Positions 1-13,270 of a DNA stretch of 64,000 nucleotides are shown here, piece after piece. The number at the start of each line of letters is the position of its first letter. The first letter of the stretch is position 1. The DNA is taken from the NCBI RefSeq assembly GCF_003182275.1, contig NZ_QGTR01000003.1:496001-560000 (forward strand), read 5' to 3'. The stretch is from Hoeflea marina (lineage in GTDB: Bacteria; Pseudomonadota; Alphaproteobacteria; Rhizobiales; Rhizobiaceae). The translations under genes and the position numbers were made by a program. Below the pieces are notes generated by a model. That model saw only the letters and a program-made list of their open reading frames with translations, made no database searches and was not told where the DNA came from.

Positions 1-719
1 GAGCGGCCAACTATGTCCGGATGGTTAGCGACGACCAGTTCTGGAACGGCCTCACCATCACCGCCGCTCTCTACTTCCTGTCACTGGTCATGCAGCTCAT
101 CTGCGGCACGGCGCTGGCGCTGCTGCTCTTCCGCGCCAAGAAGCTGCCCGGCATCGTCCGGTCGCTGTTCATTTCGCCCTTCATGATGCCGCCGGTGGTG
201 GCGGGAATGATGTGGCTGGTAATTCTCGATCCGTCGCTGGGGGCTGCCAACTACATCCTCACCTCCTTCGGCCTGCCGCCGTCGGAATGGCTGGCCTCCC
301 CCGGCTTCGTGGTGCCGACGCTGGCGCTGATCGACACCTGGCAGTGGACCCCCTATGTGGCGCTGATCGTGCTGGGCGGGCTGCAATCCCTGCCGCCCAG
401 CGTCTACGAGGCGGCCGAGATCGACGGCGCCTCGAAGTTCAAGACGCTCTACCGCATCACACTGCCGCTGCTGTTGCCGACGCTGGTCACCGCCGCCGTG
501 CTGCGCAGCGTCGATCTGCTCCGCTTCTTCGACCTGATCTACATCACCACCCAGGGCGGGCCGGCCAACGCGTCCTCGACGCTCAACATCTACGGCTTCC
601 GCACCGGTTTCGAATTCTTCCAGCTGGGCTACGCCAGCGCGCTGATGGTGACGCTGTCGGTCATCGTCTTTGGCGCAGTGCTGGTGCTCAACCGGCTCCG
701 CACCGCCGTGGCCTGGTAG
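1..719 (+). CDS. Sugar ABC transporter permease (MalF/UgpA type), 5' truncated
   Basis: Inner-membrane subunit of a carbohydrate (CUT1-type) ABC importer. The reading frame is open to the left edge of the window (codons before the first in-window ATG at 21 read AANYVR), so the true start lies outside. The visible part has several hydrophobic segments and the EAA loop that contacts the ATPase (EAAEIDGASKFKTLYRITLP, about residues 131-150 counting from the ATG at 21). It is followed 11 bases later by a second permease and further on by the matching ATPase. The binding protein is not in the window and presumably lies upstream. The neighbouring kinase and aldolase suggest the cargo is a sugar, possibly a sulfosugar (inference). 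Confidence 0.93.
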   Translation, partial: AANYVRMVSDDQFWNGLTITAALYFLSLVMQLICGTALALLLFRAKKLPGIVRSLFISPFMMPPVVAGMMWLVILDPSLGAANYILTSFGLPPSEWLASPGFVVPTLALIDTWQWTPYVALIVLGGLQSLPPSVYEAAEIDGASKFKTLYRITLPLLLPTLVTAAVLRSVDLLRFFDLIYITTQGGPANASSTLNIYGFRTGFEFFQLGYASALMVTLSVIVFGAVLVLNRLRTAVAW

Positions 720-730
720 GAGGGCGCCCC

Positions 731-1558
731 ATGACCGATCTCGCTTCAAACGACCGCTGGTTCAGCCGCCTCAACACGCTGCTGCTGATCCTCGCCGGAA
801 TCATCGTCATCACGCCCACAGCATGGATGGTGCTGTCGTCCTTCAAGCAGTCCTTCGAGGTCACGGCCTATCCGCCGACGCTGTTCTTCAGCCCGACGCT
901 CGACAATTACCGGTCGCTGTCGGACACCACGCCGTTTCCGCAATACGCGCTCAACAGCATGATCGTCACGGTCGGCTCGACGAGCCTCGGCCTGCTGCTG
1001 GGCGCGCCCGCCGCCTTCGTCGCCTCCTGGACCCGCATCACCTGGCCGGCGGTCGTCACGCTGGTTGCCCGGATGGCGCCCGGCACGCTGTTCCTGCTTC
1101 CCTGGTACCTGATGTTCCGCCAGTTCGACATGATCGGCAGCTACTGGGCGCTGATCCTGACCCATGCGGTCATCACCATGCCGATCGTCATCTGGGTACT
1201 GCTGCCGTTCTTCGACAACATTCCCCGCAGCGTCTACGAGGCAGCACAGGTCGACGGCTGCTCGCCGTTCAGGATCTTCTACCGCATCGCCCTGCCGCTG
1301 GTCAGTTCGGGCCTCGCCGTCTCGGCCATCCTCGCCTTCGTCTTCTCGTGGAACTACTTCCTGTTCTCGCTGGTGCTGTCGAACTCCGACACCAAGACGC
1401 TGATTGCCGCGTCCTTCAATTTCATCGGCGAAGGCTCGACCAACTGGGGCGGGCTGATGGCCGCCGCCACGCTGATCGCCCTCCCGCCGCTGATTCTTGC
1501 AACCATTGTCCAGCGCTGGCTGATTTCGGGCCTGACGCTCGGCGCCGTGAAAGGCTGA
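731..1558 (+). CDS. Sugar ABC transporter permease (MalG/UgpE type)
   Basis: Second inner-membrane subunit of the carbohydrate ABC importer, 275 residues. The start at 731 was chosen because it gives the usual short cytoplasmic N-terminus before the first membrane helix (LLLILAGIIVITPTAWMVL) and has a GGAGGG-like ribosome site just upstream. The EAA loop is clear (SVYEAAQVDGCSPFRIFYRI), and about six membrane segments are visible, as is usual for the family. It lies 11 bases after the first permease and 4 bases before the alcohol dehydrogenase, so all are one transcript. Confidence 0.93.
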   Translation: MTDLASNDRWFSRLNTLLLILAGIIVITPTAWMVLSSFKQSFEVTAYPPTLFFSPTLDNYRSLSDTTPFPQYALNSMIVTVGSTSLGLLLGAPAAFVASWTRITWPAVVTLVARMAPGTLFLLPWYLMFRQFDMIGSYWALILTHAVITMPIVIWVLLPFFDNIPRSVYEAAQVDGCSPFRIFYRIALPLVSSGLAVSAILAFVFSWNYFLFSLVLSNSDTKTLIAASFNFIGEGSTNWGGLMAAATLIALPPLILATIVQRWLISGLTLGAVKG

Positions 1559-1562
1559 TTGA

Positions 1563-2567
1563 ATGTCCAACCTGCACCCGAACATGCGCGCGGCCGATTT
1601 TCACGGCGACGACCGGATCACCATCGAAACAAGGCCCCGTCCCGAGGCGGGCGAAGGCGAGGCGCTGGTCCGCGTCCTGCGCACGGCCCTGTGCGGCTCG
1701 GACTTCAAGCTGTGGCACAAGGGATCGGAACACATTGCGGGCCACGAGATCTTCGGCCGTGTCGATCACCCCGGCCACGCGCTCGACGGTCGCCGCTGCG
1801 CCGTCTACATCCCGCTGCATTGCGGCCACTGCCAGCCCTGCCGCGACGGCAACACGCAGATGTGCATCACCGTGTCCTCGCTGATCGGGTGGAACCGCGA
1901 CGGCGGCTATTGCGAATACGTCGCCGTGCCCGACAACTGCCTGCTGCCGGTGCCCGACGACATCGAGGACAACCTGGCGCCGCTGCTGCTCGACACCATC
2001 GGCACGTCGGCGCATGCCGTGCGCGAGGCGAGCCGCTTCCTGCCCGCGGGCGCGGATCCCGAGGTGCTGGTCACCGGCGCGGGCCCCGTCGGCCTCGGCG
2101 TGGTGCTCGCCCTCAAGGCGCTCGGCTTCCATCGCGTCTTCGTCTCCGATCCCAATGCCGAGAGGCTGGCCATCGCCGTCGATTTCGGCGCCGCCGCCCA
2201 TCCGGTGGGCAGCCGCGACAGGCAGTTCCTGCTCATCGTCGAGTGCTCCGGCGCCCATCCCGCGCGCAATCTCGCCATCGAGCTGGTGCTGCCCAAGGGC
2301 GTCATCGTGCTGGTGGGCGAGAACGCCGCGCCATGGACCATCACCGAGGACAAGGTCTTCCGTCGCAAGGACTTCATCATGCTGCGCACCTTTTATTTCC
2401 CCAAGGGCGATCTCGACGCCAATGTCGAGCTGCTGCGCCGGAACCGGGACAGCTATGCCCGCCTGGTGGACGAGTCATTCGGGCTAGAGTCGCTGCCCGA
2501 GCGCTTCGCCAATTTCGCCGCAGGCCGGTCGATCAAGCCGGTTCTGAGCTTCGAGGAGACACGCTGA
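1563..2567 (+). CDS. Zinc-dependent medium-chain alcohol dehydrogenase
   Basis: Member of the medium-chain dehydrogenase/reductase family (sorbitol/threonine/idonate dehydrogenase group), 334 residues. The N-terminal GroES-like domain carries the catalytic zinc Cys-Gly-Ser-Asp (CGSDF) and a Gly-His-Glu (AGHEIFG). The structural-zinc lobe has four cysteines (CGHCQPCRDGNTQMC). A Rossmann NAD(P) loop follows (VTGAGPVGLGVVLALKALG). It sits between the transporter permeases and their ATPase and overlaps the ATPase gene by one base (TGATG), so it is cotranscribed. It probably oxidises or reduces a hydroxyl of the imported sugar or a derived polyol. The substrate cannot be read from the sequence. 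Such an enzyme is not part of the standard sulfo-EMP pathway, which makes its presence here notable. Confidence 0.9.
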   Translation: MSNLHPNMRAADFHGDDRITIETRPRPEAGEGEALVRVLRTALCGSDFKLWHKGSEHIAGHEIFGRVDHPGHALDGRRCAVYIPLHCGHCQPCRDGNTQMCITVSSLIGWNRDGGYCEYVAVPDNCLLPVPDDIEDNLAPLLLDTIGTSAHAVREASRFLPAGADPEVLVTGAGPVGLGVVLALKALGFHRVFVSDPNAERLAIAVDFGAAAHPVGSRDRQFLLIVECSGAHPARNLAIELVLPKGVIVLVGENAAPWTITEDKVFRRKDFIMLRTFYFPKGDLDANVELLRRNRDSYARLVDESFGLESLPERFANFAAGRSIKPVLSFEETR

Positions 2568-3646
2568 TGGCTTCGATTCGCATGCGCAACCTGGTCAAGC
2601 ACTATGGCAGCTTTCCTGTCATTCCCGGGCTGGACCTCGATATCGCCGACCACGAATTCGTCGTTCTGGTGGGCCCTTCCGGCTGCGGCAAGTCGACCCT
2701 GCTGCGGGTGCTGGCCGGGCTCGAAAGCATCAACAGCGGCGACCTGTTCATCGGCGATGTCCGGGTCAACGACGTGCAGGCCGCCAAGCGCGACATCGCC
2801 ATGGTCTTCCAGGACTACGCGCTCTACCCGCACATGACGGTCCGCCAGAACATGGCGTTCGCGCTGGAAATGCGCGGCATGAAGAAGCCCGAGATCGACG
2901 AGCGGGTCGCCAGTGCCGCGGCCATGCTCGACATCGAGAGCTTTCTCGACCGCAGGCCCAAGGCGCTGTCAGGGGGCCAGCGCCAGCGCGTCGCCATGGG
3001 CCGCGCCATCGTCCGCGACCCCAAGGTGTTCCTGTTCGACGAACCGCTGTCCAATCTCGACGCCAAGCTGCGCGCCCAGGTGCGCGCCGAGATCAAGGCG
3101 CTGTCGCAGAAGCTGCGCACCACCATGGTCTTCGTCACCCACGACCAGATCGAGGCCATGACCATGGCCGATCGCATCGTGGTGATGAAGGCCGGCGTGA
3201 TCCAGCAGGTCGGCACCCCGGAGGAAGTCTACGAGCGGCCCGAGAACATGTTCGTGGCCGGCTTCATCGGCTCTCCGGCCATGAACTTCCTGCCGGTGAC
3301 GATCGACGGCGAAACGCTGCGCCTCAAGGACGGCACCAGCTTTTCGGCAACCGGGCTTTTCGCCGCCGACGCGCTCGCCCGCGCCAGCAGGGGCGATGCC
3401 TGCCTCGGCGTCCGCCCGGAGCATCTCATGGTCTCGCCCGACAAGCCCTCGGCGCTCGACATTGAGGTCAGCCTCGTCGAGCCGCTGGGTTCGGACACGC
3501 TGGTCCATTTCCAGCTGGGCGGAGTGGCCTGCATCGGCCGTGTCTCGCCCGACCTGCGTCCCCGCCCCGGCGACCGTCTGCCGCTGCTGCCCGCTGCCGG
3601 CAAGGCTCACCTGTTCGACCAGACCACCGGCGAAGCATTCCGCTAG
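2567..3646 (+). CDS. Sugar ABC transporter ATP-binding protein (MalK/UgpC type)
   Basis: ATPase that powers the sugar importer, 359 residues, cytoplasmic and peripheral to the membrane. Walker A is GPSGCGKST (residues 36-44), the signature is LSGGQRQR, Walker B ends in LFDEPLSNLDA, and the switch His follows in VFVTHDQ. The C-terminal 120 residues are the TOBE/MalK-type regulatory domain. The start overlaps the stop of the alcohol dehydrogenase gene (TGATG), which indicates translational coupling. Confidence 0.95.
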   Translation: MASIRMRNLVKHYGSFPVIPGLDLDIADHEFVVLVGPSGCGKSTLLRVLAGLESINSGDLFIGDVRVNDVQAAKRDIAMVFQDYALYPHMTVRQNMAFALEMRGMKKPEIDERVASAAAMLDIESFLDRRPKALSGGQRQRVAMGRAIVRDPKVFLFDEPLSNLDAKLRAQVRAEIKALSQKLRTTMVFVTHDQIEAMTMADRIVVMKAGVIQQVGTPEEVYERPENMFVAGFIGSPAMNFLPVTIDGETLRLKDGTSFSATGLFAADALARASRGDACLGVRPEHLMVSPDKPSALDIEVSLVEPLGSDTLVHFQLGGVACIGRVSPDLRPRPGDRLPLLPAAGKAHLFDQTTGEAFR

Positions 3647-3664
3647 ACATTCAAGGACACCGCA

Positions 3665-5125
3665 ATGACCGATATCGGGCTCACCGACCCCAGCCTGCTC
3701 ACCCAGTCCTGCCTCGTGGACGGCAACTGGATTGCCGCCCGGCCGGGCGCGGGCATCGCCGTGCACAATCCCGCGACTGGCGCGCTGATCGCGGAAGTGC
3801 CGTCGCTGGACCTCGAACAGATCCGCACGGCCATCGACGCCGCGCACGGCGCACGCAAGGCCTGGGCCGGGCGGCCGGCCAAGGAGCGCGCCAATCTCAT
3901 CCGCCGCTGGTACGACCTGATCATCGCCAACGCCGACGACCTGGCGCGCATCCTCACCGCCGAGCAGGGCAAGCCGCTGGCAGAGGCCAGGGGCGAGATC
4001 GTCGCCAATGCCGCCTATCTCGAATGGTTCGCCGAAGAGGCCAAGCGCGTCTACGGCGACGTCATCCCGTCCCCAGCGGCCGACCGCCGCGTGATGGTGA
4101 TCAAGCAGCCGGTCGGGGTCTGCGTTGCCATCACACCGTGGAATTTCCCCAACGGCATGATCACCCGCAAGGCCGGGCCCGCTCTGGCAGCCGGTTGCCC
4201 GATCATCGTCAAGCCAGCCTCGCAGACGCCATTGTCGGCTCTGGCACTTGGCGTCCTCGCCGAGCGCGCGGGCATTCCCTCCGGCGTGTTTCAGGTGGTG
4301 ACCGGCAAGGCACGGGATCTCGGCGGCGAATTCTGCGCCAATCCGAAGGTCGCCAAGATCAGCTTCACCGGCTCGACCGAAGTCGGCCGTTGGCTGATCC
4401 GAGAGGGCGCCCACGACATCAAGCGGCTGTCGCTGGAGCTCGGCGGCAACGCCCCCTTCATCGTCTTCGAGGACGCCGACCTGGATGCTGCCGTCGATGG
4501 CGCGATGATCGCCAAATACCGCAATTCCGGCCAGACCTGTGTCTGCGCCAACCGCTTCTACGTCCACGAGAGCCTGATCGATGACTTTGCTGCAAGGTTG
4601 GCGAAGAAGGCGGCAGCGCTGAAAGTGGGGCATGGCAATGAGACCGGCGTCGAACAGGGGCCGCTGATCGACGAAGCCGCGGTTACCAAAATGGAGGTTC
4701 ACCTTGCCGACGCGCTTGCACACGGCGCGAAACTGGTAACCGGCGGCAAGCGCCATGCTCTCGGCGGCACCTTTTTCGAGCCGACAGTGATCAGCCATGC
4801 AGGACAACAGATGAAGCTAGCGCGCGAGGAGACCTTTGCGCCGCTGGCCGCGCTGATCCCGTTCTCAACCGAAGACGAGGTCATCGAGATGGCCAACGAC
4901 ACCGAGTTCGGTCTGGCCAGCTATTTCTACACCCGCGATCTCGCCCGCATGTTCCGGGTCTCCGAGGCGCTCGAAAGCGGCATTGTCGGCGTCAATTCCG
5001 GCCTGATCGCCAACGAGATGGCGCCCTTCGGCGGCTACAAGCAGTCAGGCATGGGCCGCGAGGGATCGAAATACGGCATCGAGGACTATCTCGAGATCAA
5101 ATATATCTGCGTCGCCGGCCTATGA
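3665..5125 (+). CDS. Aldehyde dehydrogenase, succinate-semialdehyde dehydrogenase-like; candidate sulfolactaldehyde dehydrogenase
   Basis: NAD(P)-dependent aldehyde dehydrogenase of the GabD group, 486 residues, the full family length. The catalytic Glu is E258 in LELGG and the nucleophilic Cys is C292 in NSGQTCVCANR. Asn160 of the PWNFP motif and the cofactor motif FTGSTEVG are present. GabD-like enzymes are known to oxidise sulfolactaldehyde to sulfolactate in some sulfoglycolytic bacteria. Next to a YihV-like kinase and a LacD/YihT-like aldolase, that role is a reasonable inference here. Alternatives are succinate semialdehyde or another C3-C5 aldehyde. The following kinase overlaps it by four bases (ATGA). 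Confidence 0.9.
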   Translation: MTDIGLTDPSLLTQSCLVDGNWIAARPGAGIAVHNPATGALIAEVPSLDLEQIRTAIDAAHGARKAWAGRPAKERANLIRRWYDLIIANADDLARILTAEQGKPLAEARGEIVANAAYLEWFAEEAKRVYGDVIPSPAADRRVMVIKQPVGVCVAITPWNFPNGMITRKAGPALAAGCPIIVKPASQTPLSALALGVLAERAGIPSGVFQVVTGKARDLGGEFCANPKVAKISFTGSTEVGRWLIREGAHDIKRLSLELGGNAPFIVFEDADLDAAVDGAMIAKYRNSGQTCVCANRFYVHESLIDDFAARLAKKAAALKVGHGNETGVEQGPLIDEAAVTKMEVHLADALAHGAKLVTGGKRHALGGTFFEPTVISHAGQQMKLAREETFAPLAALIPFSTEDEVIEMANDTEFGLASYFYTRDLARMFRVSEALESGIVGVNSGLIANEMAPFGGYKQSGMGREGSKYGIEDYLEIKYICVAGL

Positions 5126-6042
5126 GCGCGTTTCCTCCCCGCGACCCGAACGAGATGCCACATGTCGCCTGCATAGGGCTTTCGGCGCTGGACTATATCT
5201 GGACCGTGCCGCGGCTCGCGGACGAGGGCAAGATGCGCGCCGACAGCTTCGCCACCAAGGGCGGAGGCATGGCGGCGACGGCGGCGGTCGCGGTGGCACG
5301 GCTCGGCGGCCACGCCCGGTTCCTGGGCCGGGCCGGCGCCGATCCGGAGGGTCGCTTCATGCGCGACGCGCTGGAAGCCGAGCGGGTCGACGTCTCGGCG
5401 TTCCGGCTGTTCGAGGACGGCCGTTCGTCGATCTCCAGCGTCTGGGTCGACCGCACGGGTGAGCGCCGCATCGTCAATTTCCGCGGCTCCGGGCTGCCGT
5501 CCGATGCCGGCTGGCTGCCGCTGGCCGACATCGGCCGGTGCGGCGCAGTGCTGTCGGACCCGCGATGGCCGGAGGGCACCGAGGCGGCCTTCGCCGCGGC
5601 GCGCGCCGCAGGCATTCCCACCGTGCTCGATGCCGACATGGCCGATGCCGACATCTTCGAGCGGCTGCTGCCGCTGACCGACCACGCGATCTTTTCCGAG
5701 CCGGCGCTGCATGCCTTTGCTGGCCCAGAGGATCCGCTGGCCCGGGTGGCCGCCCATGGCTGCCGGGTGACGGCGGTGACGCGCGGCGGCCAGGGCGTCG
5801 ACTGGATCGAGGCCGGCGAACGCCACCACGCCGACGCCTTTCCGGTGGCCGCCATCGACACCACCGGCGCCGGCGACGTCTTCCACGGCGCCTATGCCTT
5901 TGCCATCGCCGCCCGGGCGGACAGCCGGGAGGCGATGTCCTTCGCGGCGGCGGCGGCCGCCCTCAAATGCACCCGGCCCGACGGCCGCAGCGGCATTCCC
6001 AACCTGCAAGACACGATTCAACTATGGAGAAGCAGACTATGA
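5122..6042 (+). CDS. PfkB-family sugar kinase, YihV-like (candidate 6-deoxy-6-sulfofructose kinase)
   Basis: Ribokinase/PfkB-family kinase, 306 residues, or 295 if the in-frame ATG at 5155 is used. The ATP-site motif DTTGAGDVFHG holds the catalytic Asp (D252), and GGGMAATAA is the N-terminal family motif. By eye it aligns along its whole length with E. coli YihV, the sulfofructose kinase, including DHAIFSEPAL and ALKCTRPDGRSGIP near the C-terminus. The three YihV residues that I recall as sulfonate-contacting (Lys27, Asn109, Arg138) line up with Lys37 (EGK), Asn119 (RIVN) and Arg148 (DPRW) here. This supports phosphorylation of sulfofructose, but the alignment was made without tools. The gene is coupled to its neighbours by ATGA overlaps on both sides. 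Confidence 0.88.
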   Translation: MSAFPPRDPNEMPHVACIGLSALDYIWTVPRLADEGKMRADSFATKGGGMAATAAVAVARLGGHARFLGRAGADPEGRFMRDALEAERVDVSAFRLFEDGRSSISSVWVDRTGERRIVNFRGSGLPSDAGWLPLADIGRCGAVLSDPRWPEGTEAAFAAARAAGIPTVLDADMADADIFERLLPLTDHAIFSEPALHAFAGPEDPLARVAAHGCRVTAVTRGGQGVDWIEAGERHHADAFPVAAIDTTGAGDVFHGAYAFAIAARADSREAMSFAAAAAALKCTRPDGRSGIPNLQDTIQLWRSRL

Positions 6043-7076
6043 GCACGATCGGCAAAATGCGCGCCCTCACGCGGATGGCGAACGCAGACGGGTATTTCAC
6101 CATGGTGGCGCTGGACCAGCGGCCGCCGATGATCGGCGCGATCTCCAAGGCCCGCGGCATCGCCCCCGAGGCCGTCAGCTTCGCCGACATGCTTTCGGCC
6201 AAGCGGATGATCGTCAAGGCGCTGGGCGATGCGGCAAGCTCGATGCTGTTTGATCCCAATTACGCCATTCCGGCGGCCATCGACATCCTGCCCTCCAAGA
6301 CCGGCCTGATCGTCACCCTGGAAGAGCACCGCTTCGAGGACACGCCGACGGGCCGCAAGGGCCGCGCCATCGACAACTGGAGCGTCGAGAAGATCCGCCG
6401 CATGGGCGGCAACGGCGTCAAGCTGCTGGTCTGGTACCGCCCCGACGCCAGCCGGGACGTGCTCGACCACCAGCAGGCCTTCGTCCGCGCCGTCGGAGCC
6501 GAATGCCGCCGCTACGACATTCCCTTCGTGCTCGAACTGCTGGTCTACCCCTTCCCCAGCAGCGCCAGCCACACCACCGACTATGTCGAATCCGCCGACA
6601 AGAAGGCCGAGATGGTCATCGAGAGCGTGCGCGAATTCGCCAAGCCCGAATACGGCGTCGATCTCTACAAGCTGGAGACGCCGCTGCCGGCCGCGTCGCT
6701 GCCTGAGATCGGCGACAGCGCGGCCTCGCGCACGGCGGCGGCCGAGTTTGAGACCATCGGCAGGATCTGCCGCGATGCCGGAATTCCCTGGGTGCTGCTG
6801 TCGGGCGGCGCGACCCAGGAACAGTTCGAGCGGGTGCTCGGCTACTCCTATGCCGCCGGCGCCCAGGGCTACCTCGCCGGACGCACGATCTGGCTCGATG
6901 CCATCGAGACCCACTTTCCCGACGAGGCGAAGGTCATGGCGGCCTTGAAGGCCGATGGACTCGAGCGGCTCCGGGCGCTCGAAGAACTGACCCGGGCCAA
7001 GGCCGAGCCGTGGACGGCCAGGTATGACATCGACGGCATCACCCGCGAAGGCGGCTTTGCCGCAGCCTATTGCTGA
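6039..7076 (+). CDS. Class I aldolase of the LacD/YihT family (candidate sulfofructose-1-phosphate aldolase)
   Basis: Predicted 345-residue TIM-barrel aldolase related to tagatose-1,6-bisphosphate aldolase LacD and to YihT, which cleaves 6-deoxy-6-sulfofructose 1-phosphate to DHAP and sulfolactaldehyde. The Schiff-base lysine is expected at K211 (DLYKLETP, matching DLYKVEMP in YihT). The phosphate-binding region PWVLLSGG and AGRTIW also matches. The start at 6039 is preferred over the in-frame ATG at 6024 because GGAG at 6026-6029 is well placed and the start overlaps the kinase stop (ATGA). It is the last gene of the operon and is followed by a strong inverted repeat at 7227-7264. Confidence 0.88.
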   Translation: MSTIGKMRALTRMANADGYFTMVALDQRPPMIGAISKARGIAPEAVSFADMLSAKRMIVKALGDAASSMLFDPNYAIPAAIDILPSKTGLIVTLEEHRFEDTPTGRKGRAIDNWSVEKIRRMGGNGVKLLVWYRPDASRDVLDHQQAFVRAVGAECRRYDIPFVLELLVYPFPSSASHTTDYVESADKKAEMVIESVREFAKPEYGVDLYKLETPLPAASLPEIGDSAASRTAAAEFETIGRICRDAGIPWVLLSGGATQEQFERVLGYSYAAGAQGYLAGRTIWLDAIETHFPDEAKVMAALKADGLERLRALEELTRAKAEPWTARYDIDGITREGGFAAAYC

Positions 7077-11427: not shown

Positions 11428-12536
11428 CCGCCGATGTCTCGATCCGAAACGCCACGAAGGACTTCGGCTCCTTCCGGGCGTTGAACGATGTTTCGCTGGA
11501 AATCTCAGCGGGCGAGTTCATCGTGCTGCTCGGACCGTCCGGCTGCGGCAAGACCACCTTGCTGTCCATCCTCGGCGGCTTCCTCGAGCCGACCTCCGGG
11601 ACGGTCCTGATCGGCGGCCGCGACATGACCCATGTCGCCGCCGCCAGGCGTCCGACCACCACGATGTTCCAGGACTATGCGCTGTTTCCGCACATGTCGC
11701 TTCTGGACAATGTCGGCTTCGGCCTGCGCATGCGCGGCCTGGCCAGGTCGGAGCGGCATCGGAAGGCGCTGGCCCATCTCGACCTGGTCGGCCTGCGGAT
11801 GTCGGCATCGCGAAAGCCGCACGAGTTGTCCGGCGGCCAGCGCCAGCGCGTCGCGCTCGCCCGCGCCCTGGCGGTCGACCCGGATGTGCTGCTGCTCGAC
11901 GAACCCCTGGGTGCGCTGGACCTCAAGCTGCGCCGGCAGATGCAGGACGAACTGAAGGCGATCCAGCGGCGGGTCGGCACCACCTTCGTGCACGTCACCC
12001 ATGACCAGGAGGAGGCGATGGCCATCGCCGACCGCATCGTGGTGATGAACCAGGGGCGCATCGAGGACATCGGCCTGCCCACCGACATCTACATGCGGCC
12101 GCGCTCGCTGTTTTCCGCCGGCTTCATGGGCGAGGCGAACTTCCTGCCCGCCCGCATCATCGGCGCGGCGGATGGCGAGGTCCGGGTCGAGACCGCGCTC
12201 GGCGAGGTGCTGTTGCCTGCGGCAGCGTTTGCCGCAGCCGTCCCCCCGGCGGGCGGGCGGATCACGCTCTGCATCAGGCCGGAGCATTTCCGGCCCGCCG
12301 GCGGAGCGGAAGCCAGCGTGGCGCTCGGCCGCGCCTCGATCATCGACAGCGCCTTCTTCGGGGGCCACCACCGCTGCCATCTTCGGCCCGAGGCGGCGCC
12401 CGACATGATCCTCACCGCGCATCTGCCGCAGACGGCGCAACCGCGAACCGGCGACCTGATCGATCTCGCGGTCGCCGCCGCCAGCGTCGTCGCGCTTGCC
12501 GAAGCACCTGCCTCAACTCAGGGAGACCCGCAATGA
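11424..12536 (+). CDS. ABC transporter ATP-binding protein (PotA-like)
   Basis: ATPase of the polyamine-type importer, 370 residues. Walker A is GPSGCGKTT (residues 37-45), the signature is LSGGQRQR, Walker B ends in LLDEPLGALD, and the switch is HVTHDQEEA. A C-terminal TOBE domain follows (about residues 275-355). It overlaps the following metallo-hydrolase gene by four bases (ATGA), which ties that enzyme to the transported substrate. Confidence 0.94.
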   Translation: MTADVSIRNATKDFGSFRALNDVSLEISAGEFIVLLGPSGCGKTTLLSILGGFLEPTSGTVLIGGRDMTHVAAARRPTTTMFQDYALFPHMSLLDNVGFGLRMRGLARSERHRKALAHLDLVGLRMSASRKPHELSGGQRQRVALARALAVDPDVLLLDEPLGALDLKLRRQMQDELKAIQRRVGTTFVHVTHDQEEAMAIADRIVVMNQGRIEDIGLPTDIYMRPRSLFSAGFMGEANFLPARIIGAADGEVRVETALGEVLLPAAAFAAAVPPAGGRITLCIRPEHFRPAGGAEASVALGRASIIDSAFFGGHHRCHLRPEAAPDMILTAHLPQTAQPRTGDLIDLAVAAASVVALAEAPASTQGDPQ

Positions 12537-13270
12537 AGCCGCGCATCCGGCCGGACGACTGGTACCGCCAGCGCCGCCTCGACGATGATGTCACCGCCAT
12601 CAGCGAGCCCCATATCCAGGAGTTCTATCGCTGCAACATATGGCATGTGCGCGGTCGGGATCGCGACATGCTGGTCGACAGCGGCATGGGCGTGGTCTCG
12701 CTCCGCCAATGGGTTCCACTGGTCACCGAGCGACCGCTGACCGCCGTCGCCAGCCACACCCATTTCGACCACATCGGCTGCCATCACGAATTCGAGTGCC
12801 GGGCGGTGCATGCGGCGGAGGCCGGGCTTCTGGCCGATCCGACCCGGCAGAACACTCTCGCCGACCCCTATGTCACCGACGACATCTTCGATGCGCTGCC
12901 GCCCGAGCCGTATTGCTCGACATGCTATGCGGTCAAGCGGGCTCCGGCGACGCGGATCCTCGAGGACGGCGACATCATCGATCTCGGCGACCGCTCATTC
13001 GAGGTGATCCACACGCCCGGCCATTCCCCGGGCGGGATCGCGCTCTATGAAAAATCCACCGGAATCCTGTTTTCCGGCGACATTCTCTATGACGGCCCGC
13101 TGATCGAGGACACCTACCATTCCGACGCCGCTGACTACCTCGCCTCGATGGAGCGGCTGTTGAACCTGCCGGTCCGGCTCGTCCATGGTGGCCATTTTCC
13201 AAGCTTCAGCGGCGAACGCTATCGGCATCTGATCTCCGCATGGCTCACCGCCAAACAGAGGACCACGTGA
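12533..13270 (+). CDS. Metallo-beta-lactamase-fold hydrolase
   Basis: Predicted 245-residue MBL-fold enzyme with a two-metal site. The HxHxDH motif is HTHFDH (residues 75-80), further metal ligands are expected in HTPGHSPGG and FSGDILYDG, and a last His lies in VHGGHFPSF. The family hydrolyses esters, amides, lactones or thioesters and is not necessarily linked to antibiotics. Its start overlaps the ATPase stop (ATGA), so it belongs to the transporter operon and probably acts on the imported compound or a product of it. The substrate is unknown. Confidence 0.9.
   Translation: MKPRIRPDDWYRQRRLDDDVTAISEPHIQEFYRCNIWHVRGRDRDMLVDSGMGVVSLRQWVPLVTERPLTAVASHTHFDHIGCHHEFECRAVHAAEAGLLADPTRQNTLADPYVTDDIFDALPPEPYCSTCYAVKRAPATRILEDGDIIDLGDRSFEVIHTPGHSPGGIALYEKSTGILFSGDILYDGPLIEDTYHSDAADYLASMERLLNLPVRLVHGGHFPSFSGERYRHLISAWLTAKQRTT

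Follow-up and report, generated by a model that had tools for sequence, protein, structure and literature searches.

A conserved operon of Hoeflea marina likely to serve the breakdown of a six-carbon organosulfonate

Which compound would be degraded by an operon that combines an ATP-binding cassette (ABC) sugar importer, a PfkB kinase resembling Escherichia coli YihV, a LacD-like aldolase and a GabD-like aldehyde dehydrogenase (ALDH), and in which no isomerase is visible? Such an operon lies at the left end of a 64,000-nucleotide stretch of Hoeflea marina DNA (contig NZ_QGTR01000003.1, positions 496,001 to 560,000), hereafter the window (G000:C3:496001-560000, G000 being the window's own genome, 96.6% complete). 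A first-pass annotation had proposed a sulfosugar operon in which ABC uptake would be followed by phosphorylation, cleavage and oxidation of sulfolactaldehyde, and had suggested sulfoquinovose as the substrate. The sulfosugar reading is supported by our analysis, because of the title of a homologous aldolase structure (PDB 8tnf), the co-occurrence of the kinase type with SuyB of sulfolactate sulfo-lyase (SuyAB), and the presence of suyAB beside operon genes in genome G002. Sulfoquinovose itself is doubtful as the substrate, since the kinase falls outside the YihV clade and the genome yielded no GH31 or GH188 protein and no sulfoquinovose-type isomerase such as relatives have.

Gene content, homology, the conserved operon with its operator and patterns of co-occurrence were read from the sequence; from these we infer every reaction, the order of the dehydrogenases and the substrate. 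On this footing the operon is likely to be a LacI-regulated system for a C6 organosulfonate. The ABC importer would take up a 6-deoxy-6-sulfo-hexose or a sulfo-hexitol. A zinc-dependent medium-chain dehydrogenase (MDR), usually with a short-chain dehydrogenase (SDR), would then form a 6-sulfo-ketohexose by oxidation or oxidoreduction, replacing the aldose-ketose isomerase of the known sulfoglycolytic Embden-Meyerhof-Parnas (sulfo-EMP) clusters. The kinase would phosphorylate this ketose at C1, the class I aldolase would cleave the product to dihydroxyacetone phosphate (DHAP) and sulfolactaldehyde, and the GabD-like ALDH would oxidize sulfolactaldehyde to sulfolactate. In the window genome SlcC/ComC and SuyAB, whose genes lie on another contig, would convert sulfolactate to pyruvate and sulfite; relatives that have no SuyAB would perhaps export sulfolactate via a TauE-type (TSUP) transporter.

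The operon and its central enzymes

The operon is intact and, with its LacI gene counted, begins 3.5 kb left of the window. Its left part is given in coordinates of L007, the 12 kb left of the window start (window base 1 is L007 base 12001), and protein families were assigned by Pfam and NCBIfam. The gene of the LacI regulator (L007 8457-9524, minus strand) is divergent from that of the sugar-binding protein (L007 9727-11031), and the palindrome TGTAACCGGTTACA at L007 9646 lies between them. There follow the SDR (L007 11097-11834), two permeases (1..719, with the gene start at G000:C3:495850, 151 bases before the window, and 731..1558), the MDR, of the alcohol/polyol dehydrogenase kind (1563..2567; Pfam ADH_N/ADH_zinc_N), the UgpC/MsmX-type importer ATPase (2567..3646; orthologs annotated ugpC/msmX), the ALDH of the GabD/succinate-semialdehyde dehydrogenase (SSADH) family (3665..5125), the kinase (5122..6042) and the aldolase (6039..7076), all those inside the window on the plus strand. 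The first-pass annotation had looked to the genes left of the window for a binding protein, a regulator, a sulfoquinovosidase and an isomerase; the first two are there, along with the SDR, but neither of the last two.

Kinase homologs were gathered from genomes of the family, plasmids and named genomes (for the latter, the best 80 of 535). Loci with a kinase above 260 bits and an aldolase above 380 bits were termed type A, of which there were 36 among the loci that had been annotated by comparison with the proteins of this operon; clusters in which a related kinase accompanies a GH188 homolog and an isomerase (L159-L164) were termed type B.

The aldolase shared 70% identity and the fold with 8tnf from Paracoccus strain Merri, a sulfohexulose-1-phosphate aldolase by its PDB title. 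By homology it is predicted to be a member of this 8tnf-type group. It is LacD/8tnf-like, a class I enzyme outside the YihT subfamily (23% identity to YihT), and its score exceeds the threshold of a general subfamily model for tagatose-1,6-diphosphate aldolases. Lys211 (codon 6669..6671, plus strand), which we presume to be the Schiff-base residue from its alignment with LacD, was invariant in 20 homologs. For the ALDH, which scored above the cut-off of NCBIfam TIGR01780, the best solved relative was 8c54 (E 5e-224), which we take to be RlGabD. PMC10599462 proposes two RlGabD arginines as sulfonate-binding, and the RlGabD residues given there fit the 8c54 numbering. The ALDH keeps the catalytic Cys and both of these arginines (171 and 289), of a kind that ordinary SSADHs have too.

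Cluster 2 of Paracoccus wurundjeri strain Merri, with MDP0926266 (MDR), MDP0926268 (kinase) and MDP0926269 (aldolase), resembles the operon in its families and spacing (MDR, one gene, kinase, aldolase) and likewise contains no isomerase. The presumed equation of 8tnf with MDP0926269 and the correspondence of the two MDRs are based on the strain, the protein family and the order of the genes. Both genomes have SuyAB, SlcC and ComC, the SuyAB genes being inside the cluster in Merri and on another contig in the window genome. For sulfofucose, Merri has a separate Entner-Doudoroff-type branch (SfcH, D, F, E). The Merri MDR, the presumed counterpart of ours, did not oxidise sulfolactaldehyde (PMC12421959), which fits a role of the MDR on a C6 compound.

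YihV was the closest solved relative of the kinase, which has a YihV-like fold; assignment as IolC, tagatose kinase or fructokinase was rejected because those families scored far below YihV. The first-pass annotation had noted that the kinase aligns with YihV over its whole length. In a FastTree analysis (midpoint root, 106 leaves, 17 near-duplicates removed beforehand) kinases of this type formed their own clade (0.964), separate from the YihV clade (0.981) and the type B clade (0.989), and orthology to YihV was rejected; deeper joins were poorly supported (for example 0.366 for type B with YihV).

The first-pass annotation had also relied on a Lys/Asn/Arg triad. We take YihV Lys27, Asn109 and Arg138 to be sulfonate contacts, a literature search for the residue names having given nothing relevant; the same columns hold Lys37 (codon 5230..5232), Asn119 (5476..5478) and Arg148 (5563..5565; all plus strand) in the window kinase. 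Of 37 kinases of this type 36 had the complete triad, as did 24/25 from yih clusters, 14/17 of the type B clade and 6/44 others; for the Asn alone the counts were 37/37, 24/25, 14/17 and 6/44. As nearly all members of the kinase subfamily have the Lys and the Arg (43 and 41, respectively, of those 44 others), only the Asn is informative. Four of the six other kinases with Asn were in sulfo contexts, namely L123 (type A neighbours), L104 (near SuyAB), L114 (GH188 and isomerase) and L044 (YihV clade), and two (L060, L065) lay beside housekeeping genes with no sulfonate genes recognised by eye. All three residues are thus there, and the Asn, enriched in sulfo-linked kinases, mildly supports a sulfosugar function; as proof the triad is insufficient, the Asn being present in L060 and L065 and missing from some kinases near SuyAB. 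A different operon type was seen in L042 (Cereibacter) and L108 (Variovorax E3), with an ABC importer, ALDH, tartrate-dehydrogenase-like protein, YihT-like aldolase, kinase (Leu in the Asn column) and a dehydrogenase that is zinc-type in L042 and an SDR in L108.

Association with sulfolactate sulfo-lyase

Among 121 genomes sampled from the family, the kinase type (at least 59% identity; next match 47%) was found in 8 and SuyB (at least 79%) in 25. SuyB was present in 6 of the 8 genomes with the kinase type against 19 of 113 others (one-sided Fisher P 0.00095) and, when genomes with a type B isomerase were excluded, in 5 of 7 against 6 of 97 (P 1e-4), where the groups were drawn after the lists had been seen and the statistics ignore relatedness. 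Genomes with the type B isomerase (at least 54% identity, n=17, three weaker matches dropped) had SuyB in 14 cases, and those with related kinases of neither type in 0 of 15. The background in the class sample was 34 of 385 genomes; class-wide co-occurrence was uninformative, with just one further aldolase match (50%) in the 385. Of 24 named genomes with such loci (those of L070 and L123 included), a set without matched control, 11 contained SuyB. Outside the family sample, some YihV-like kinases from other clades were also seen within about 4-6 kb of SuyAB homologs, in Roseomonas and relatives (L068, L069 and L078, with Ala in the Asn column) and in Desulfofustis (L104).

Physical linkage was observed in two family genomes. 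G002 has a second binding protein and SDR, after which come a GntR gene and then SuyA-SuyB-TctC-TctA-SlcC-ComC, with SuyB 10 kb from the kinase; in G033 the distance is 28 kb. In the remaining four family genomes that have both the kinase type and SuyB, among them that of the window, the two are on separate contigs (C3 and C5 in the window genome).

The window genome encodes adjacent SuyA-SuyB-SlcC-ComC homologs (L142:4803-8379; C5 near 152-155 kb) and a set for dihydroxypropanesulfonate (L141:1100-4722; C3 near 223-227 kb) which we take to be HpsN-HpsO-HpsP-like from gene order and the annotation in L167; the organism is thus predicted to mineralise C3 sulfonates. No SuyAB model was matched in the NCBIfam scan. 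The SuyAB assignment rests on gene order and on the roughly 80% identity of SuyB to Paracoccus proteins whose genes form UxaA pairs next to those for TctCA, SlcC-type and ComC-type proteins and a sulfate exporter. For ComC the best model was L-sulfolactate dehydrogenase (182 bits, below the cut-off of 500). A PF04295 gene near C3:230 kb was rejected as SuyB because it scores with galactarate dehydratase (TIGR03248, 396 bits against a cut-off of 731). The designations Suy, Slc, Com and Hps were assigned from gene order and family, partly after PMC12421959.

Conservation of the operon and its entry step

LacI, binding protein, SDR, the two permeases, MDR and ATPase were each found at 35 of the 36 type A loci, in Rhizobiaceae, Bradyrhizobium, Hyphomicrobium, Paracoccus, Variovorax, Pseudacidovorax and Candidimonas. 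The palindrome TGTAACCGGTTACA, the putative operator, was sought at 35 type A loci and the more distant L123; 16 had an exact copy, 9 one mismatch, 10 two and one three, compared with 53 of 2000 random 600-base segments reaching at most two mismatches, these being from the same loci and possibly overlapping real sites. The 24 exact or near-exact copies among the fetched loci were all at type A loci (L123 included), those of L012 and L134 being a single site in G033.

Further genes recurred at some type A loci. An enolase-superfamily protein (MR) that scored with sugar-acid dehydratases was near 22 of the 36; it was rejected as a member of the window's operon, where it is absent, the best homolog in the genome being 49% identical and on another contig. 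A TSUP homolog was present in 13 (Pfam TauE in L039; L056 has a further TauE-family gene) and a sulfatase of one type in 5. Sulfatases adjoin the operon at L038:16728-24882, L041:16744-24870, L137:16028-19306, L052:1994-3427 and L136:396-1874 and 11743-13191, accompanied by a formylglycine-generating enzyme in L038, L041 and L137, with a sulfonate ABC importer next in L038 and L041. Given these neighbours, the operon's substrate may derive from a sulfated conjugate.

The absence of a visible isomerase, already remarked on in the first-pass annotation, held for the complete operon and, as regards the type B isomerase, for the genome (none at E 1e-20). Searches of the window genome for PF01055 (GH31) gave no matches and those for GH188 none at E 1e-60. 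The genome's only PF07221 gene, near C3:564 kb, was unconvincing as the missing isomerase (36 bits to YihS, in a 768-amino-acid frame). The MDR, 59-79% identical to 29 orthologs, had solved relatives at 64-100 bits that include threonine, xylitol, sorbitol, galactitol-1-phosphate and L-idonate dehydrogenases. MDR and SDR occurred together at 35 of the 36 type A loci, none of which had a sulfoquinovose-type isomerase, and the exception, L134 in G033, has neither dehydrogenase, an isomerase adjoining its kinase and aldolase and the operator kept before the kinase. Because of this distribution, and with no GH31, GH188 or isomerase in the window genome, the MDR, mostly with the SDR, probably makes the sulfohexulose. 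The G033 region (L134, L157 and L158; C1:4489500-4540000, about 50 kb) also encodes an IlvD-type dehydratase, an SMP-30 lactonase, a galactonate-dehydratase-like enzyme and SuyAB; the IlvD protein exceeds the L-arabinonate dehydratase cut-off, so that part of it may be ordinary sugar metabolism.

The type B clusters of Rhizobiaceae share with the window operon the kinase family, a LacD-like aldolase (5/6) and the tie to SuyAB, and differ in having GH188 and an isomerase and no close MDR or SDR (best matches at most 110 bits in L159-L164, against 434-773 and 279-516 at the 35 type A loci). In L159-L163 a GH188 homolog and a FucI-like isomerase stand beside the YihV-like kinase and SuyAB, with a LacD-like aldolase in four, SlcC in all five and ComC within the locus in four; in L164 (G021) GH188 lies just past the locus end. 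The GH188 assignment is based on matches of L162 to 8qc2/8qc3 (E about 1e-107), which are SqgA entries according to PMC10755693. Members of the same FucI-like family are also found in YihQ-containing yih clusters (L091, L102, L105), which supports a role on sulfoquinovose, and L159-L163 are predicted to break down sulfoquinovose to pyruvate and sulfite within one bacterium.

Alternative readings and significance

From the ketose onward the operon would work like sulfo-EMP (YihS, YihV, YihT and YihU in E. coli; an Arthrobacter variant has SlaB), with which it shares the YihV-like kinase subfamily and, as predicted, a DHAP-forming class I aldolase and a sulfolactaldehyde step. It differs in the lack of any isomerase or sulfoquinovosidase found, the separate kinase clade, the LacD/8tnf-like aldolase, ABC import and two near-constant dehydrogenases. 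We did not file it as sulfoquinovose sulfo-EMP, because the features that define that pathway were not found, namely an isomerase (by comparison with YihS and type B sequences), a kinase of the YihV clade, an aldolase of the YihT subfamily and a sulfoquinovosidase. Sulfo-EMP2 and hybrid sulfo-EMP (SqvD, SqiK, SqiA) follow the same logic of intermediates and were set apart by description, PMC12890257 giving them a class II aldolase, SqiA, and enzymes of other families. A literature search on sulfosugar terms, with most subscription journals outside its scope, found no description of the operon's pathway and no use of the term sulfohexulose; PMC12421959 was the sole paper found dealing with this gene set.

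Several observations weigh against the proposed pathway. A close ALDH was present in only 12 of the 36 type A loci, with a less similar one near 2 more, and some of these loci are close relatives of one another. Replacement of the isomerase hangs on the one exception L134, whose MDR and SDR could sit elsewhere in G033. SuyB was missing from 2 of the 8 kinase-type genomes of the family sample and from 13 of the 24 named genomes, none of the 9 from Bradyrhizobium and its family having it. Roseomonas-type kinases close to SuyAB lack the Asn, as does L032 of type B. Growth on sulfofucose did not raise the kinase and aldolase of strain Merri, and the closest studied case therefore gives no natural substrate. 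Finally, L123 has MDR, kinase, aldolase and operator with no SDR in 20 kb, which makes the role of the SDR uncertain; L070 also has none, on a short contig. The L123 pattern favours the MDR as the main step and leaves room for a sulfo-alditol as the substrate. Among solved binding proteins the closest to ours were 5iai (104 bits), 4rya, which binds sorbitol (87 bits), and a trehalose/maltose-binding protein (83 bits); SmoF, which binds sulfoquinovosyl-glycerol, came lower at 73 bits. This order is a weak hint in the same direction. We tentatively suggest a sulfohexitol (6-deoxy-6-sulfo sugar alcohol) route, in which a polyol-type binding protein would deliver the substrate, the MDR would form the sulfohexulose, and kinase and aldolase would follow; it would be the first such route recognised. 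On this possible variant, oxidation and not isomerisation would open the pathway, and the SDR might serve another epimer or reduce sulfo-aldoses.

That the operon is a plain sulfoquinovose sulfo-EMP system, with isomerase and sulfoquinovosidase elsewhere in the genome and both dehydrogenases accessory, is unlikely: the kinase is closest to YihV in fold and residues, and in G033 kinase and aldolase do adjoin a sulfoquinovose-type isomerase, but the searches of the nearly complete window genome for GH31, GH188 and type B isomerase, the poor PF07221 candidate and the presence of MDR and SDR at 35 of 36 loci speak against it. We give little credence to a sugar acid substrate, for which MDR and SDR would make a 5-keto-hexonate, the kinase would act at C6 and the aldolase would yield DHAP and a carboxylated aldehyde for the ALDH. 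Such a substrate would suit the SDR, which scored with glucose 1-dehydrogenase, KduD and gluconate 5-dehydrogenase models (none at cut-off), the MDR, which scored with the L-idonate 5-dehydrogenase model (below cut-off), and the MR near 22 of the loci, and pockets of this kind might accept a carboxylate as a mimic of a sulfonate; the reading is opposed by the 8tnf title, the association and linkage with SuyB, and the TSUP neighbours. It is improbable, too, that MDR and SDR act on C3 sulfonates, as HpsP and HpsO do on dihydroxypropanesulfonate, with an unrecognised enzyme making the ketose. The fold families are the same (37% and 29% identity to HpsO and HpsP), yet the genome already has a separate and closer HpsN-HpsO-HpsP-like set, and the Merri MDR was inactive on sulfolactaldehyde. 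An ordinary tagatose or polyol operon with coincidental sulfo-links would accord with the tagatose-type aldolase score and with the sugar- and polyol-binding relatives of the binding protein, and is very improbable in view of the 8tnf title, the SuyB statistics and the linkage to suyAB in G002 and G033. The kinase retains the triad outside the tagatose and fructokinases, and the upstream genes do not indicate an ordinary sugar, the two points on which the first-pass annotation had staked its sulfosugar reading.

The neighbourhood on either side was named by eye. Abutting the operon on the left, L007:1-8204 (G000:C3:484001-492204) encodes an iron-type, maleylacetate-reductase-like alcohol dehydrogenase, an ABC importer of the branched-chain type, an FAD monooxygenase and a protein resembling intradiol dioxygenases, and has the look of a gene cluster for the catabolism of hydroxyquinol or resorcinol. 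To the right, window:8551-13270 holds the genes of an ABC importer of polyamine type, with a binding protein, two permeases and an ATPase, and after them the gene of a hydrolase with the metallo-beta-lactamase fold.

Sulfosugars form a large pool of organic sulfur, and routes of their breakdown are often spotted by sulfoquinovosidase genes. An operon type with neither a sulfoquinovosidase nor the known isomerases would be missed by such searches; this one was present in the 36 loci examined, some closely related, of Alpha- and Betaproteobacteria including root-associated Sinorhizobium and Variovorax. The C6 organosulfonate pathway proposed here offers a testable function for the 8tnf aldolase and the neighbouring kinase and dehydrogenase of strain Merri, and points to a further sulfosugar or sulfopolyol used by soil bacteria as part of the recycling of organic sulfur. 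If the sulfohexitol reading is true, sulfo-sugar alcohols would be a real class of environmental substrates.

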